Origin: Treponema sp.
GTDB lineage: Bacteria > Spirochaetota > Spirochaetia > Treponematales > Breznakiellaceae
Assembly: GCA_031257195.1 (NCBI GenBank)
Contig: JAIRPD010000094.1
Span: 1-64,000 of the forward strand
Direction of reading: 5' to 3'
Length of the DNA stretch: 64,000 bases
Part shown: positions 10,636 through 58,325 of the stretch, piece by piece
How the letters are laid out: every line of letters begins with the position of its first letter
How positions within the stretch are numbered: position 1 is the stretch's first letter
Notes under the pieces: generated by a model
What the model saw: the letters and a program-made list of their open reading frames with translations, nothing else
Told to the model about the DNA's origin: nothing
Databases searched by the model: none
Translations under genes and position numbers: made by a program

Positions 10636-11589
10636 ATGAAGGCTGTCCATACTCCGGCGCTGCTGGAAGAAACAATCCGCTATCTCGCGCCCCGGCGGGG
10701 AGGGGAACTCATGGTGGACGCTACCCTGGGCGAGGGGGGGCACAGCGGGGCTTTTCTTGAGCGTTTCCCCACCCTGCGGATCCTGGGGCTGGACGCGGAT
10801 GGGGAAATCCAGGAGCGGGCCCGGGAACGGCTGAAGGCTTTTGGGGACCGGGCGCGTTTTTACCGGGTTTGGTCCCAGGAATTCTTTGCCGCCTACCCGG
10901 CGGATTTGGACAGGCCCGACACGATTCTCTTTGATCTGGGGATCAGCCTGTACCATTACGAAAGTTCCCGCCGGGGTTTTAGTTTTTTAAAGGACGAGTA
11001 CCTGGATATGAGGATCGATACTTCCCGGGGAAGAACCGCGGCGGAAATAATCGCCGCCCTTTCGGAGAGGGAACTGGCGGATCTGCTCTATTTAAAGGGC
11101 GGGGAGCGCTATTCCCGCCGCATAGCCAGGGCGGTGGCGGCGGCGAAAAAACGGGGTCCGGTAACCACCACCGGGGCCCTGGCGGAACTGGTGAGCGCCT
11201 CGGTGCCCGCCGGATACCGTCGCGGCCCCACGCATCCCGCCACCCGGAGCTTTCAGGCCCTGCGGATAGCGGTAAACGGCGAGGCGGAAACGCTGCCGGT
11301 TCTGCTGGAAAAAGCCCTGGGGGTTCTTAAGGCCGGGGGCCGCATGGGGGTGATTAGTTTTCATTCCGGGGAAGACCGGGAGGTTAAACATTTTTTCCGG
11401 GCGAAAAGCCGGGAGTGTACCCCGGCCCCGGAAACGCCGATAGGTAGAAGTGGAGGGTTCCCGGTGGTTAAGATCCTTACCCCCAGGCCTGTTTCCGCGG
11501 GGGAAGGGGAGCGGCGAAATAATCCCCCCTCCCGGAGCGCCAAGTTCCGGGCGGTGGAAAAGATAAACGATCCCGGGGTAAACGCGTGA
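10636..11589 (+). CDS. rsmH: 16S rRNA (cytosine1402-N4)-methyltransferase RsmH (MraW)
   Basis: Methylates C1402 of 16S rRNA with S-adenosylmethionine. The start ATG at 10636 gives MKAVHTPALLEETIRYLAPR, the family N terminus; an in-frame TTG at 10606 would add ten atypical residues. Motifs are DATLGEGGHSG (28-38), FDLGISLYHYESSRRGFSF and GVISFHSGEDREVKHFF. The usual Q in DLGVSSxQ is replaced by YHYE here. The total of 317 residues is normal. It overlaps the next gene by 4 bases (GTGA). Confidence 0.95.
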   Translation: MKAVHTPALLEETIRYLAPRRGGELMVDATLGEGGHSGAFLERFPTLRILGLDADGEIQERARERLKAFGDRARFYRVWSQEFFAAYPADLDRPDTILFDLGISLYHYESSRRGFSFLKDEYLDMRIDTSRGRTAAEIIAALSERELADLLYLKGGERYSRRIARAVAAAKKRGPVTTTGALAELVSASVPAGYRRGPTHPATRSFQALRIAVNGEAETLPVLLEKALGVLKAGGRMGVISFHSGEDREVKHFFRAKSRECTPAPETPIGRSGGFPVVKILTPRPVSAGEGERRNNPPSRSAKFRAVEKINDPGVNA

Positions 11590-38021: not shown

Positions 38022-38050
38022 TTGATGTCCCGGCCCCGGCCCGGTATACT
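38022..38050 (+). promoter_or_regulatory. Promoter of small ORF A (leaderless geometry)
   Basis: TTGATG (38022-38027), 17 bp, TATACT (38045-38050), with the ATG of the 168-nt ORF 6 bases later at 38057. Transcription would start on or next to the ATG. Confidence 0.65.
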
Positions 38051-38056
38051 GTTTCC

Positions 38057-38224
38057 ATGGGACGGCCGGCAGAACGGCTTCCGCCGCCGGCAAGGGGCGT
38101 ACCGCCACCGGTAAGGACGCTATCACCACCGGTAAGGGTCTTATCATCACCGGTAAGGGGCGTATCGCCGCCGGCGGGGACGCTATCACCGCCGGCGGGG
38201 GGGCCGCCGCCGTCAAAACGATAA
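38057..38224 (+). CDS. Small ORF A: 55-residue heptapeptide-repeat peptide made of eight 21-nt blocks
   Basis: The ORF is exactly eight 21-nt blocks including the TAA stop. It reads MGRPAER, LPPPARG, VPPPVRT, LSPPVRV, LSSPVRG, VSPPAGT, LSPPAGG, PPPSKR: a proline-rich basic peptide of seven-residue repeats. No known protein family is recognised. It has no Shine-Dalgarno but a promoter fits leaderless translation. It is followed after 15 bases, in the same frame, by the gene at 38240. It may instead be only a DNA or RNA repeat array that happens to be open; the second locus at 57454 with identical length argues that the frame matters. Confidence 0.5.
   Translation: MGRPAERLPPPARGVPPPVRTLSPPVRVLSSPVRGVSPPAGTLSPPAGGPPPSKR
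38078..38203 (+). repeat. 21-bp tandem repeat array A (six units) with a palindromic hexamer per unit
   Basis: Six contiguous units of 21 bp (starts 38078, 38099, 38120, 38141, 38162, 38183) follow the pattern [C/G]T-x-[CT]CRCCGG-YRRGG. Each contains a self-complementary hexamer: GCCGGC in units 1, 5 and 6 and ACCGGT in units 2, 3 and 4, so both outer bases change together. Units are direct repeats without spacers, hence not CRISPR. 21 bp is two helical turns. Confidence 0.85.
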
Positions 38225-38239
38225 CTGGGGAGGCAACGA

Positions 38240-38902
38240 ATGCACGGAAAGAGCTATATCCCAACCCGGGAGGCTGATTTTGTGGACTGGAGCGGTAATC
38301 TATTGGCCGTGGCCAGGGCCCACCAACAGGAATGGGGGCTGAATGGGACCCACTTGACGGAGCTGGAGGGCCTTCAGGCGGAGGTGAAGGCCCTGCACGA
38401 GACCTGCCGGACCTCGATGTACACCAAGCTGGATATGCAGGCCAAGAACGAAAAGAAGGCGCTTTTGAAGAAGCGGCTGGAGGTGTATGTGCGGAATAAC
38501 CTCCAGAATAACGACGTTATGACGGATAACGGCCGGGAGGCTCTGCGGATTCCTATCCACGACCGGAATCCTACCCCCCGGCCCGCGCCGGATACGGCGC
38601 CGGAGACGGAGACGGAAACGCCCCTGCCCCGGACGCTGCGGATCAAGTTCCGGGGGGTGGCCGCTCCCCGGTGGGGGAAGCCCGAGGGGGTTCACGGCCT
38701 GGAGTGCCGCTGGGTGGTGTCGGACGCGCCGCCGGAGAGCATGGCGGGGCTGGTCAATTCGGATTTCGCCACCCGCAGCCCCCTGACCTTGACTTTTGAC
38801 GAGGGCGCCCGGGGGAGGCGGCTGTACTTCGCCGTCCGCTGGGAGGGAACCTCCGTCCAGAAGGGGCCGTGGAGCGAAATCTTCTCCACCATCATTCCAT
38901 GA
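38240..38902 (+). CDS. Uncharacterised repeat-array-associated protein, copy A
   Basis: A protein of 220 residues with GGAGG 6 bases before the ATG. No signal peptide. The N-terminal part is helical (MHGKSYIPTREADFVDWSGN, HQQEWGLNGTHLTELEGLQA), with a second helical block (KKRLEVYVRNNLQNND). A Pro/Thr/Glu linker at about 106-130 follows, then a beta-rich, fibronectin-III-like C-terminal domain (LRIKFRGVAAPRWGKPEGVH, RRLYFAVRWEGTSVQKGPWS). It is clearly paralogous to the 57645 protein. From memory, similar uncharacterised proteins occur in gut Bacteroidetes and other taxa; function unknown. The downstream hairpin cluster overlaps its stop codon. Confidence 0.8.
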   Translation: MHGKSYIPTREADFVDWSGNLLAVARAHQQEWGLNGTHLTELEGLQAEVKALHETCRTSMYTKLDMQAKNEKKALLKKRLEVYVRNNLQNNDVMTDNGREALRIPIHDRNPTPRPAPDTAPETETETPLPRTLRIKFRGVAAPRWGKPEGVHGLECRWVVSDAPPESMAGLVNSDFATRSPLTLTFDEGARGRRLYFAVRWEGTSVQKGPWSEIFSTIIP

Positions 38903-39006: not shown

Positions 39007-39057
39007 GGGCGAATTCGCGAATTGATTCAGGACACTGTTAAATTAAGGAGAAACGGT

Positions 39058-39294
39058 ATGGGAAGAAGATCAAATTCAAGGGGCGGTAAAACCTATGTTA
39101 CCTCAAAAGGCTATCGTAGGTTTAAGGATAGCGGCACGTATGTGCATCGCTGGATGGAAGAAAAAAAACTTGGACGTGAACTAAAGTCCGGTGAAGTTGT
39201 GCATCATAGGGATGGGAATACACTTAACAATTCTCCTGGCAACTTGAAAGTTTATCCTAATCAAGCGGCGCACATGAGGGATCACCATAAATAA
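39058..39294 (+). CDS. Small HNH endonuclease-like protein
   Basis: A protein of 78 residues from an ATG with AAGGAG upstream; an in-frame ATG at 39022 lacks a site. The C-terminal half VVHHRDGNTLNNSPGNLKVY with following HMRDHH is the HNH/homing-endonuclease pattern (paired His, Asn-x-x-Asn, later His). The N-terminal half (GRRSNSRGGKTYVTSKGYRR, then VHRWMEEKKLGRELK) is like the DNA-binding lead of phage HNH proteins. Base use is visibly more AT-rich than the neighbours, which suggests transfer by phage or a mobile element. It is shorter than free-standing enzymes, so activity is uncertain. Confidence 0.7.
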   Translation: MGRRSNSRGGKTYVTSKGYRRFKDSGTYVHRWMEEKKLGRELKSGEVVHHRDGNTLNNSPGNLKVYPNQAAHMRDHHK

Positions 39295-57418: not shown

Positions 57419-57446
57419 TTGTCTTTTCTGGAAACCGTGGTATTAT
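57419..57446 (+). promoter_or_regulatory. Candidate promoter of small ORF B (leaderless geometry)
   Basis: TTGTCT (57419-57424), 16 bp, TATTAT (57441-57446), then 7 bases to the ATG at 57454. The same box read on the minus strand is TATAAT, but without a -35. Confidence 0.5.
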
Positions 57447-57453
57447 AAACGCC

Positions 57454-57621
57454 ATGCGCCCCCGGGCGGGGGAGGGCCGCCCGCCGGGTTGGGAGGGTCT
57501 CCCGCCGCGATGGGAGACCCTCCCTTCGGTGTGGGAGGGTCTCCCTTCGGTAGGGGAGGGCCTCCCTTCGGTGGGGGAGAGGCTGACGATGGGGTATCCG
57601 CTCCCCCTGGGGGGGCGTTAG
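57454..57621 (+). CDS. Small ORF B: 55-residue heptapeptide-repeat peptide made of eight 21-nt blocks
   Basis: Again exactly eight 21-nt blocks with the stop codon. It reads MRPRAGE, GRPPGWE, GLPPRWE, TLPSVWE, GLPSVGE, GLPSVGE, RLTMGYP, LPLGGR. The peptide is acidic where small ORF A is basic, but both have Leu-Pro-rich heptads of equal number and length. No Shine-Dalgarno precedes the ATG. Other frames, and the minus strand, are also open here, so coding is inferred mainly from the match of architecture with the first locus. Confidence 0.5.
   Translation: MRPRAGEGRPPGWEGLPPRWETLPSVWEGLPSVGEGLPSVGERLTMGYPLPLGGR
57470..57579 (+). repeat. 21-bp tandem repeat array B with GGGAG-NNN-CTCCC palindromes
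   Basis: Contiguous 21-bp units (57475, 57496, 57517, 57538, 57559). Each junction has GGGAG, three bases, CTCCC: perfect at 57491-57503, 57512-57524, 57533-57545 and 57554-57566, and imperfect at 57470. The central triplet is GGT, ACC, GGT, GGC in turn, so the centre changes while the arms stay fixed. No spacers, hence not CRISPR. Confidence 0.85.
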
Positions 57622-57644
57622 TTTACGAAACAAGGATGGCGATC

Positions 57645-58325
57645 ATGCGCGAACACAAACACGGCTATTATCTTCCCGCGGGGGACTTTGAGTTCTACGA
57701 GTGGGCCCTCAACTTCCACGCCGTCGCGGCGGCCCACGCGGCGGACTGGGGGCTGCCCGCGGAGGAGCTGGCCGCCTTCCAGGCGGGGATTACGGCCTAC
57801 AAGGCCCTTTTGGACGGGGCCTACGGGGAAAACGCGGGGAAGGAGGATATCCGCCGCAAGAATACCGCCCACCGGGAGCTGGCCCACCAGGCCCAGGACC
57901 TGGTGAACGCCCATATCCGGTATAACCGGCGGATCTCCCCCGACGATATGGCCGCCCTGGGGGGGCCGGTCCGCGACGGGACGCGCACCCCCGTGCCGCC
58001 GCCGGCGAGCCGGCCCGCGTTTACCCTCCGGCCGGTGAACAGCCGGGAGCTGCGGATCGACTTCCACGACGAGGGTTCCACCCGGCGGGCTATTCCCTAC
58101 GGCCTGGACGGGGCGATCCTCCACCTCCAGGTGCTGGAGCCGGGGGAGGCGGTTCCCCTGGACCCGGAGGCCCTCCCCAAGACCCGGCTCCTCACCGCCA
58201 GTCCCCAGGTTTACGAGTTTTCCCCCCCGGACCAGGGTAAGCGGGTGGTCTGCGCCCTCTGCTGGCAGAACGAGAAGGGGGAAAAGGGTCCCTACACGGA
58301 TATTGTTACCGCCGTTGTGCCCTAG
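57645..58325 (+). CDS. Uncharacterised repeat-array-associated protein, copy B
   Basis: A paralogue of the 38240 protein, 226 residues from the ATG at 57645, with AAGG 9 bases upstream. The frame stays open upstream to 57489, and ATG 57636 is an alternative. Shared features: HGYYLPAGDFEFYEWALNFH, AADWGLPAEELAAFQAG, a helical block, a Pro-rich hinge (GTRTPVPPPAS), and a beta-rich end (LRIDFHDEGSTRRAIPYGLD, RVVCALCWQNEKGEKGPYTD). Both proteins end in KGP(W/Y)(S/T)(E/D)I and a final Pro. They are well diverged, so the duplication is old or the copies were acquired separately. Function unknown. Confidence 0.8.
   Translation: MREHKHGYYLPAGDFEFYEWALNFHAVAAAHAADWGLPAEELAAFQAGITAYKALLDGAYGENAGKEDIRRKNTAHRELAHQAQDLVNAHIRYNRRISPDDMAALGGPVRDGTRTPVPPPASRPAFTLRPVNSRELRIDFHDEGSTRRAIPYGLDGAILHLQVLEPGEAVPLDPEALPKTRLLTASPQVYEFSPPDQGKRVVCALCWQNEKGEKGPYTDIVTAVVP

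Follow-up and report, generated by a model that had tools for sequence, protein, structure and literature searches.

In Pseudomonas fluorescens, a different cluster of REPINs is found beside each RAYT gene (PMC3116915). REPIN/RAYT systems of Pseudomonas and enterics (REP palindromes with REP-associated tyrosine transposases; PMC3116915) combine several divergent paralogous genes in one genome, each with its own repeat cluster alongside, with copies of the repeat dispersed in intergenic DNA, palindromic units, and a gene and repeat that appear to co-evolve. The same traits were encountered in the locus described here (locus B), which lies in a window of 64,000 nucleotides of Treponema sp. (contig JAIRPD010000094.1, positions 1 to 64,000), and in its relatives. 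The gene family of locus B and the 21-bp array that accompanies it form an unrecognised two-part element, present in about two dozen copies in this genome. The element differs from REPIN/RAYT in that its protein has no homology to tyrosine transposases and is predicted to adopt a helical-bundle/fibronectin-III (FnIII) fold, in that its units form head-to-tail 21-bp arrays of about 4 to 33 copies rather than REP doublets, and in that dozens of genes occur per genome with the array nearly always 5'. An IS200/IS605-type tyrosine (Y1, HUH) transposase domain was absent from the family protein (Pfam, NCBIfam and predicted fold), so the module is not a member of the REPIN/RAYT class.

Plasmid iterons and the parC site of ParMRC are tandem, helically phased and often dyad sites lying directly upstream of the gene of their binding protein. 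Set beside them, the present arrays are likewise tandem, phased and often dyad units upstream of a gene, but they are chromosomal, occur as tens of unrelated types per genome with dispersed copies, and come with no recognised replication or segregation genes nearby and no recognised DNA-binding domain. Arrays of the TIGR and CRISPR kinds also have short units and adjoin a dedicated protein gene, but the present arrays showed no alternation of conserved repeat and variable spacer, every unit being a repeat, and no Cas or Tas domains. Open-access literature on 21-bp, tandem, palindromic and termite Treponema repeats yielded no description of the module. If confirmed, it would stand beside REPIN/RAYT as a second case for comparison, one without a transposase.

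Locus B and its counterpart in the same window, locus A, comprised the following features:

57419..57446, + strand: locus B promoter, sigma-70-like in sequence (TTGTCT, 16-bp spacer, TATTAT; score 12.1 bits)
57454..57621, + strand: locus B 55-codon ORF, with its ATG at the expected transcript start, crossing the array; probably incidental
57465..57597, + strand: locus B array, about six units of 21 bp, dyad core GGGAGGGTCTCCC / GGGAGACCCTCCC
57645..58325, + strand: locus B family protein, 226 aa, three-helix bundle (about 14-104) and fibronectin-III-like domain (about 123-226)
38022..38050, + strand: locus A promoter (TTGATG, 17-bp spacer, TATACT; -10 box at 38045-38050)
38057..38224, + strand: locus A 55-codon ORF of 168 nt, ATG at 38057, equivalent of the locus B ORF
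38074..38206, + strand: locus A array, about six units of 21 bp (TRF, lag-21 identity)
38240..38902, + strand: locus A family protein, 220 aa, paralogue of the 57645 protein

Most of the anatomy proposed for locus B by the sequence-only reading was recovered. The -10 box TATTAT (57441-57446) is followed by seven bases and then by the ATG at 57454; the ORF has the announced 168 nt and its translation, MRPRAGEGRPPGWEGLPPRWETLPSVWEGLPSVGEGLPSVGERLTMGYPLPLGGR, contains the heptads GLPSVGE and TLPSVWE. Not all eight blocks of the ORF are repeats, however, since only about six units could be recognised in the period-21 array, which was detected by TRF and by lag-21 identity over 57465-57597. The protein at 57645-58325 is indeed a paralogue of the one starting at 38240 (28% identity, E 1.1e-19), and locus A repeats the plan of locus B in promoter, ORF, 21-bp array and family gene. 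As had been claimed, the DNA of the two arrays is unrelated: their profile similarity was 0.46, where unrelated arrays average about 0.40 with a 95th percentile of about 0.50. By eye, the locus A unit core TAAGGnCnCTAT is similar to GATAAGACCGTTATC, found in its closest paralogue and in orthologues. A small HNH-endonuclease-like ORF, also recognised by eye, lies directly 3' of the locus A gene (window 39022-39294).

The pairing of gene and array extended far beyond these two loci. Among homologues with at least 250 bp of upstream sequence, a period-21 array was found upstream in 98 of 103, compared with 3 of 106 on the downstream side and 0 of 109 within the gene, and one of the exceptions (L093, scored as array-less) has a decayed array by eye. 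The proposals that the module exceeds chance and that selection or maintenance acts on the combination of 21-bp array and protein family, not on the unit sequence, are thus both borne out by the 98 of 103 homologues. When periods of 15 to 30 bp were compared, the best was 21 in 89 loci and 28 in six; the latter can be attributed to nearby microsatellites with a perfect 7-bp repeat, 28 being a multiple of 7. Gene-linked arrays contained a median of 10.7 units (3.7 to 32.8), each 62-99% identical to the consensus of its own array over the whole unit, and were separated from the start codon by a median of 79 bp. A period-21 or period-42 array was also present on the 3' side at L097, L105 and L143, where it may belong to a neighbour gene or be a gene-less array.

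The sequence-only reading had called for a count of such modules in the genome and its relatives, which came to about two dozen and up to 59, respectively. In the genome of the window (2.54 Mb, 135 contigs, 91% complete), a search with the locus A protein returned 25 matches at 24 places, as two of the matches hit one gene: 22 copies were intact, one was frameshifted and one decayed (23 near-full-length copies plus the decayed one). All 22 copies with enough upstream sequence, the frameshifted one included, had a 5' array with an exact 21-bp period, and no clear 3' array was seen beside any of these 22. The family profile matched 16 of 40 relatives, with as many as 59 places in one genome. In a sample of 393 genomes taken from across the phylum it matched 13, almost all of them members of the window's own family (Breznakiellaceae). 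By name, bins with the family belonged to Treponema, Tannerella, Prevotellaceae, Dysgonamonadaceae and Planctomycetaceae; going by isolate naming, we take them to be termite-gut bins. In the protein tree, Bacteroidota members are interspersed with the spirochaete members at no fewer than two positions, so the family has probably crossed phyla, and the 21-bp period was kept across two phyla. No relatives of the locus A protein were found among viral contigs and plasmids, and there was no sign of phage or plasmid carriage. Two closed genomes also carried the family, which is therefore not an assembly artefact, nor are its arrays: two intact copies in the 3,855,671-bp genome (G336) both had upstream arrays (21-bp and, by eye, 22-bp units), and one of the decayed copies in the 4,059,867-bp genome had a 21-bp array. 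The unit of about 22 bp in G336 (L247, 982000-985000, lag-44 repeat), upstream of a family gene, indicates that the period is not absolutely fixed. If confirmed, the module would be a common unannotated repeat/protein system, reaching 59 copies in a 2.7-Mb genome and occurring in three phyla.

Unit sequences differed from array to array. Array similarity tracked protein identity (0.40 below 40% identity, 0.64 at 80-90%; Mantel, 0 of 2000), both rising together above about 60% protein identity, but some protein pairs of about 75% identity had unrelated arrays (L030/L130, 0.36; L010/L104, 0.43). Arrays can therefore be replaced quickly, which implies either fast switching of specificity or a protein that does not read the sequence. 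In the latter direction, the arrays would be fast-evolving satellite DNA that hitchhikes with a mobile gene family, or is tolerated near it, without being acted on by the protein. This is consistent with arrays that change far faster than proteins and vary in unit number between assembled variants, and with the perfect 7-bp microsatellites and 23-bp arrays of the same genomes; it is hard to reconcile with an exact 21-bp period and a 5'-only placement across phyla, with dyads showing compensatory changes, or with the lack of arrays in sampled genomes without the family, and we consider it unlikely. What enforces exactly 21 bp while the sequence changes completely, and how the protein family keeps pace, are the questions that the module raises.

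Palindromic structure, which characterises the repeat clusters of REPIN/RAYT, was significant in 51 of 99 arrays (p<=0.05, 5 expected; Wilcoxon 5e-16) in a local, column-permuted test that superseded a weak first test on consensus units alone. The dyads were often loop-less, as in TCTAGAACATGTTCTAG and CCTATATATAGG, and 22 of the 51 significant ones reached the centre without a loop. Compensatory double changes within arrays exceeded expectation (108 observed vs 70 expected), unlike those of a slid-partner control (133 vs 140), although such changes could also arise by gene conversion or template switching. Many arrays folded strongly relative to column-permuted ones (mean z -2.7; locus B, -3.2 forward and -4.0 reverse), which could suggest that the array acts as RNA, in the form of a 5' untranslated series of hairpins to which the protein binds or through which its translation is controlled. 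A promoter precedes the array in loci A and B and in 34 other strong cases, as such a leader would require, but among the 76 loci with a strong promoter the best one followed the array in 33, preceded it in 36 and fell within it in 7; in the 33 loci with a promoter between array and gene, the gene transcript would be without the array. The symmetry was moreover equal on both strands, and the arrays gave no Rfam match at curated thresholds, with sub-threshold matches being mostly to microRNA-type hairpins. Promoter position and loop-less dyads weaken a simple RNA hairpin, and we regard a role as RNA as very unlikely.

The small ORF, its length and its heptads had been proposed as parts of the module. 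A translated heptad-repeat leader peptide would fit with the position of the ATG, 6-7 nt downstream of the -10 box in 20 promoter matches before arrays, as opposed to about 2 at other distances and far above background, and with the ORFs of loci A and B, which cross their arrays. The same spacing was enriched before real genes genome-wide (aspartokinase, rubredoxin and housekeeping genes; contigs L148-L167 and L183-L202 of the own genome). Leaderless starts are thus real in this organism, in which leaderless transcripts seem common, and the leaderless ATG was rejected as a module-specific trait. Most ORFs from these ATGs stopped before the array; in the minority running through it, A and B included, lengths were 168 (A), 168 (B), 324, 360, 450, 453, 501 and 612 nt, so the equal length of the A and B ORFs is a coincidence and not a signal of the module. 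The variable array positions carried no codon signature (3-base periodicity 0.62 vs 0.75 after column permutation), open frames were slightly in excess but equally on both strands, and the gene's own frame was open back through 20 of 99 arrays. Frames through arrays were not conserved, which the sequence-only reading had named as evidence against itself. A coding function of the arrays was rejected on 3-base periodicity, two-strand open-frame counts against column permutation and the fate of ORFs across loci, and with arrays also lying upstream of promoters a functional peptide is highly improbable. The small repeat peptide is probably incidental, and the leaderless small ORF of loci A and B would be a by-product of a promoter preceding a stop-poor 21-bp array. 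An open frame across a 21-bp array should accordingly be annotated as a peptide only where there is evidence for one.

Perfect 7-bp tandem repeats (CTCACGR, CTCCCRG and similar) were seen upstream at L016, L030, L092, L103, L115 and L130, and near 12536 of L197. They closely follow a strong promoter that has an ATG where its transcript should begin, which gives small ORFs such as MLLKMADKKTEQPSRLTTHDSR..., and often sit before the 21-bp array; they are a possible phase-variable element.

The family protein had no significant Pfam or NCBIfam match, the Pfam FnIII models included, and a sequence search of the PDB gave chance matches only. Its structure, predicted by AlphaFold2 from 105 aligned sequences (mean pLDDT 95.5), has helices at 14-104 and strands at 124-224. 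Foldseek matched only FnIII domains or FnIII-containing proteins (best E 4.5e-5), and on these two predictions the C-terminal domain has the FnIII beta-sandwich; the fold of the C-terminal half is thus shared with FnIII domains, but it is joined here to an N-terminal three-helix bundle. No whole-length match to the combination of three-helix bundle and FnIII was found in the PDB or among viral models, and the matches to FnIII domains of viral tail proteins were taken as fold-level likeness only. The predicted helical bundle and FnIII domain included no DNA-binding fold detectable with Foldseek, and the charge was near neutral (median pI 7.0; locus B protein, 6.0). We infer recognition of the array by the family protein from genetics and anatomy, not from the fold.

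Arrays without a family gene were common, as about 15 were counted in sampled contig stretches covering 0.73 Mb of the own genome, two of them being versions of one locus. Arrays away from the family had been expected to tell against the module, but the gene-less arrays mostly match gene-linked types and therefore extend the system rather than cancel it: in a first census, 10 of 13 matched a gene-linked array of the own genome (0.66-0.83), and no match to an array of another genome exceeded 0.59. The same repeat is thus dispersed in the intergenic DNA of its own genome, as in REPIN/RAYT. A gene-less sister of the locus B array lies at C116:5405-5607 (83% identical in the best stretch) and one of the locus A array at C38:13862-14096; L007-type arrays were found at C18 and C3, and the L019 type recurred on seven further contigs. 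A gene-less sister of the L081 array was not found in its Bacteroidales genome, the one genome tried. No remnants of the family gene were detected beside the gene-less arrays. Comparison of genomes with and without the family drew on samples of a few genomes: raw array calls reached 28.7 and 31.9 per Mb in two genomes with the family, and G010 had 4 arrays in 125 kb, while no genuine 21-bp arrays occurred in 374 kb of four same-family genomes without it (one call was poly-C). One array (L155:110-313) was set outside the class as a coding Pro-rich repeat.

Variation of unit number, which had been proposed as a check between strains, was seen at a single locus without a family gene, which was assembled twice. 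This region upstream of pgi (metallophosphoesterase-like gene, array, pgi; L191:13040-13223 and L201:77-345) forms the end of both C36 and C49; the flanks match, while the two arrays differ in length by 42 bp, exactly two units. Either unit number varies between population variants or the locus is duplicated. No insertion event or empty site was found for the arrays, the change seen being this one of unit number between two assembled variants. As many 21-bp arrays lie at contig ends and differ between variants, they matter for assembly.

Gene-less arrays were intergenic, between tandem, divergent and convergent genes, and some precede pgi, asnS, recQ or a CDF-transporter-like gene. The latter would suit arrays acting as operators, with the protein or a partner as autoregulator and the gene-less arrays of the same type marking its regulon, as would the strictly 5' array close to the ATG, its helical phasing and its dyads. 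Position between convergent genes argues against a purely promoter-bound role, and gene control cannot be the general role of such arrays; the target genes share no theme, 4-33 units exceed usual operators, and the near-neutral pI and lack of a recognised DNA-binding domain argue weakly in the same direction. A purely regulatory function appears rather improbable.

We tentatively favour, at somewhat less than even chances, locus B as one copy of a dispersed, multi-copy element of protein and cognate array that works at the DNA level, with a logic like that of REPIN/RAYT. If the array works as DNA, all units would face one way, like sites of a dimeric protein, since 21 bp equal two turns of B-DNA. 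An individual family protein, alone or in a complex, may recognise its own array type, and contact between protein and array would regulate the gene in cis and, in trans, maintain or multiply arrays. The fact that about half of the arrays were not significantly palindromic speaks against this element reading, as do the lack of a DNA-binding fold and the near-neutral pI of the protein, the unrelated arrays of some proteins of about 75% identity, and the gene-less arrays between convergent genes. Its wider form is more doubtful, though conceivable: a class of gene/satellite elements spread across phyla in gut communities, in which each FnIII-type protein reads its own phased 21-bp array and spreads or keeps copies without a recognisable transposase, array and specificity being re-set together fast.

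Other repeats were noted in the same genomes. A small gene (MTEVKAYERN..., MNGTN...) occurred twice at L162 (1258-1702 and 8324-8700) with the same promoter and an L019-type 21-bp array, and represents a second gene family travelling with 21-bp arrays. Arrays with a 23-bp period, some palindromic, were present at L156:3913-4146, L160:17334-17495, L185:10540-10716 and L200:213-330 and 387-511, with four more in G010, and showed no link to the gene family of the 21-bp arrays. The 23-bp array of L185 lies behind a gene (10800-11462) that, judged by eye, looks like one for an HU/DUF4469-type DNA-binding protein.
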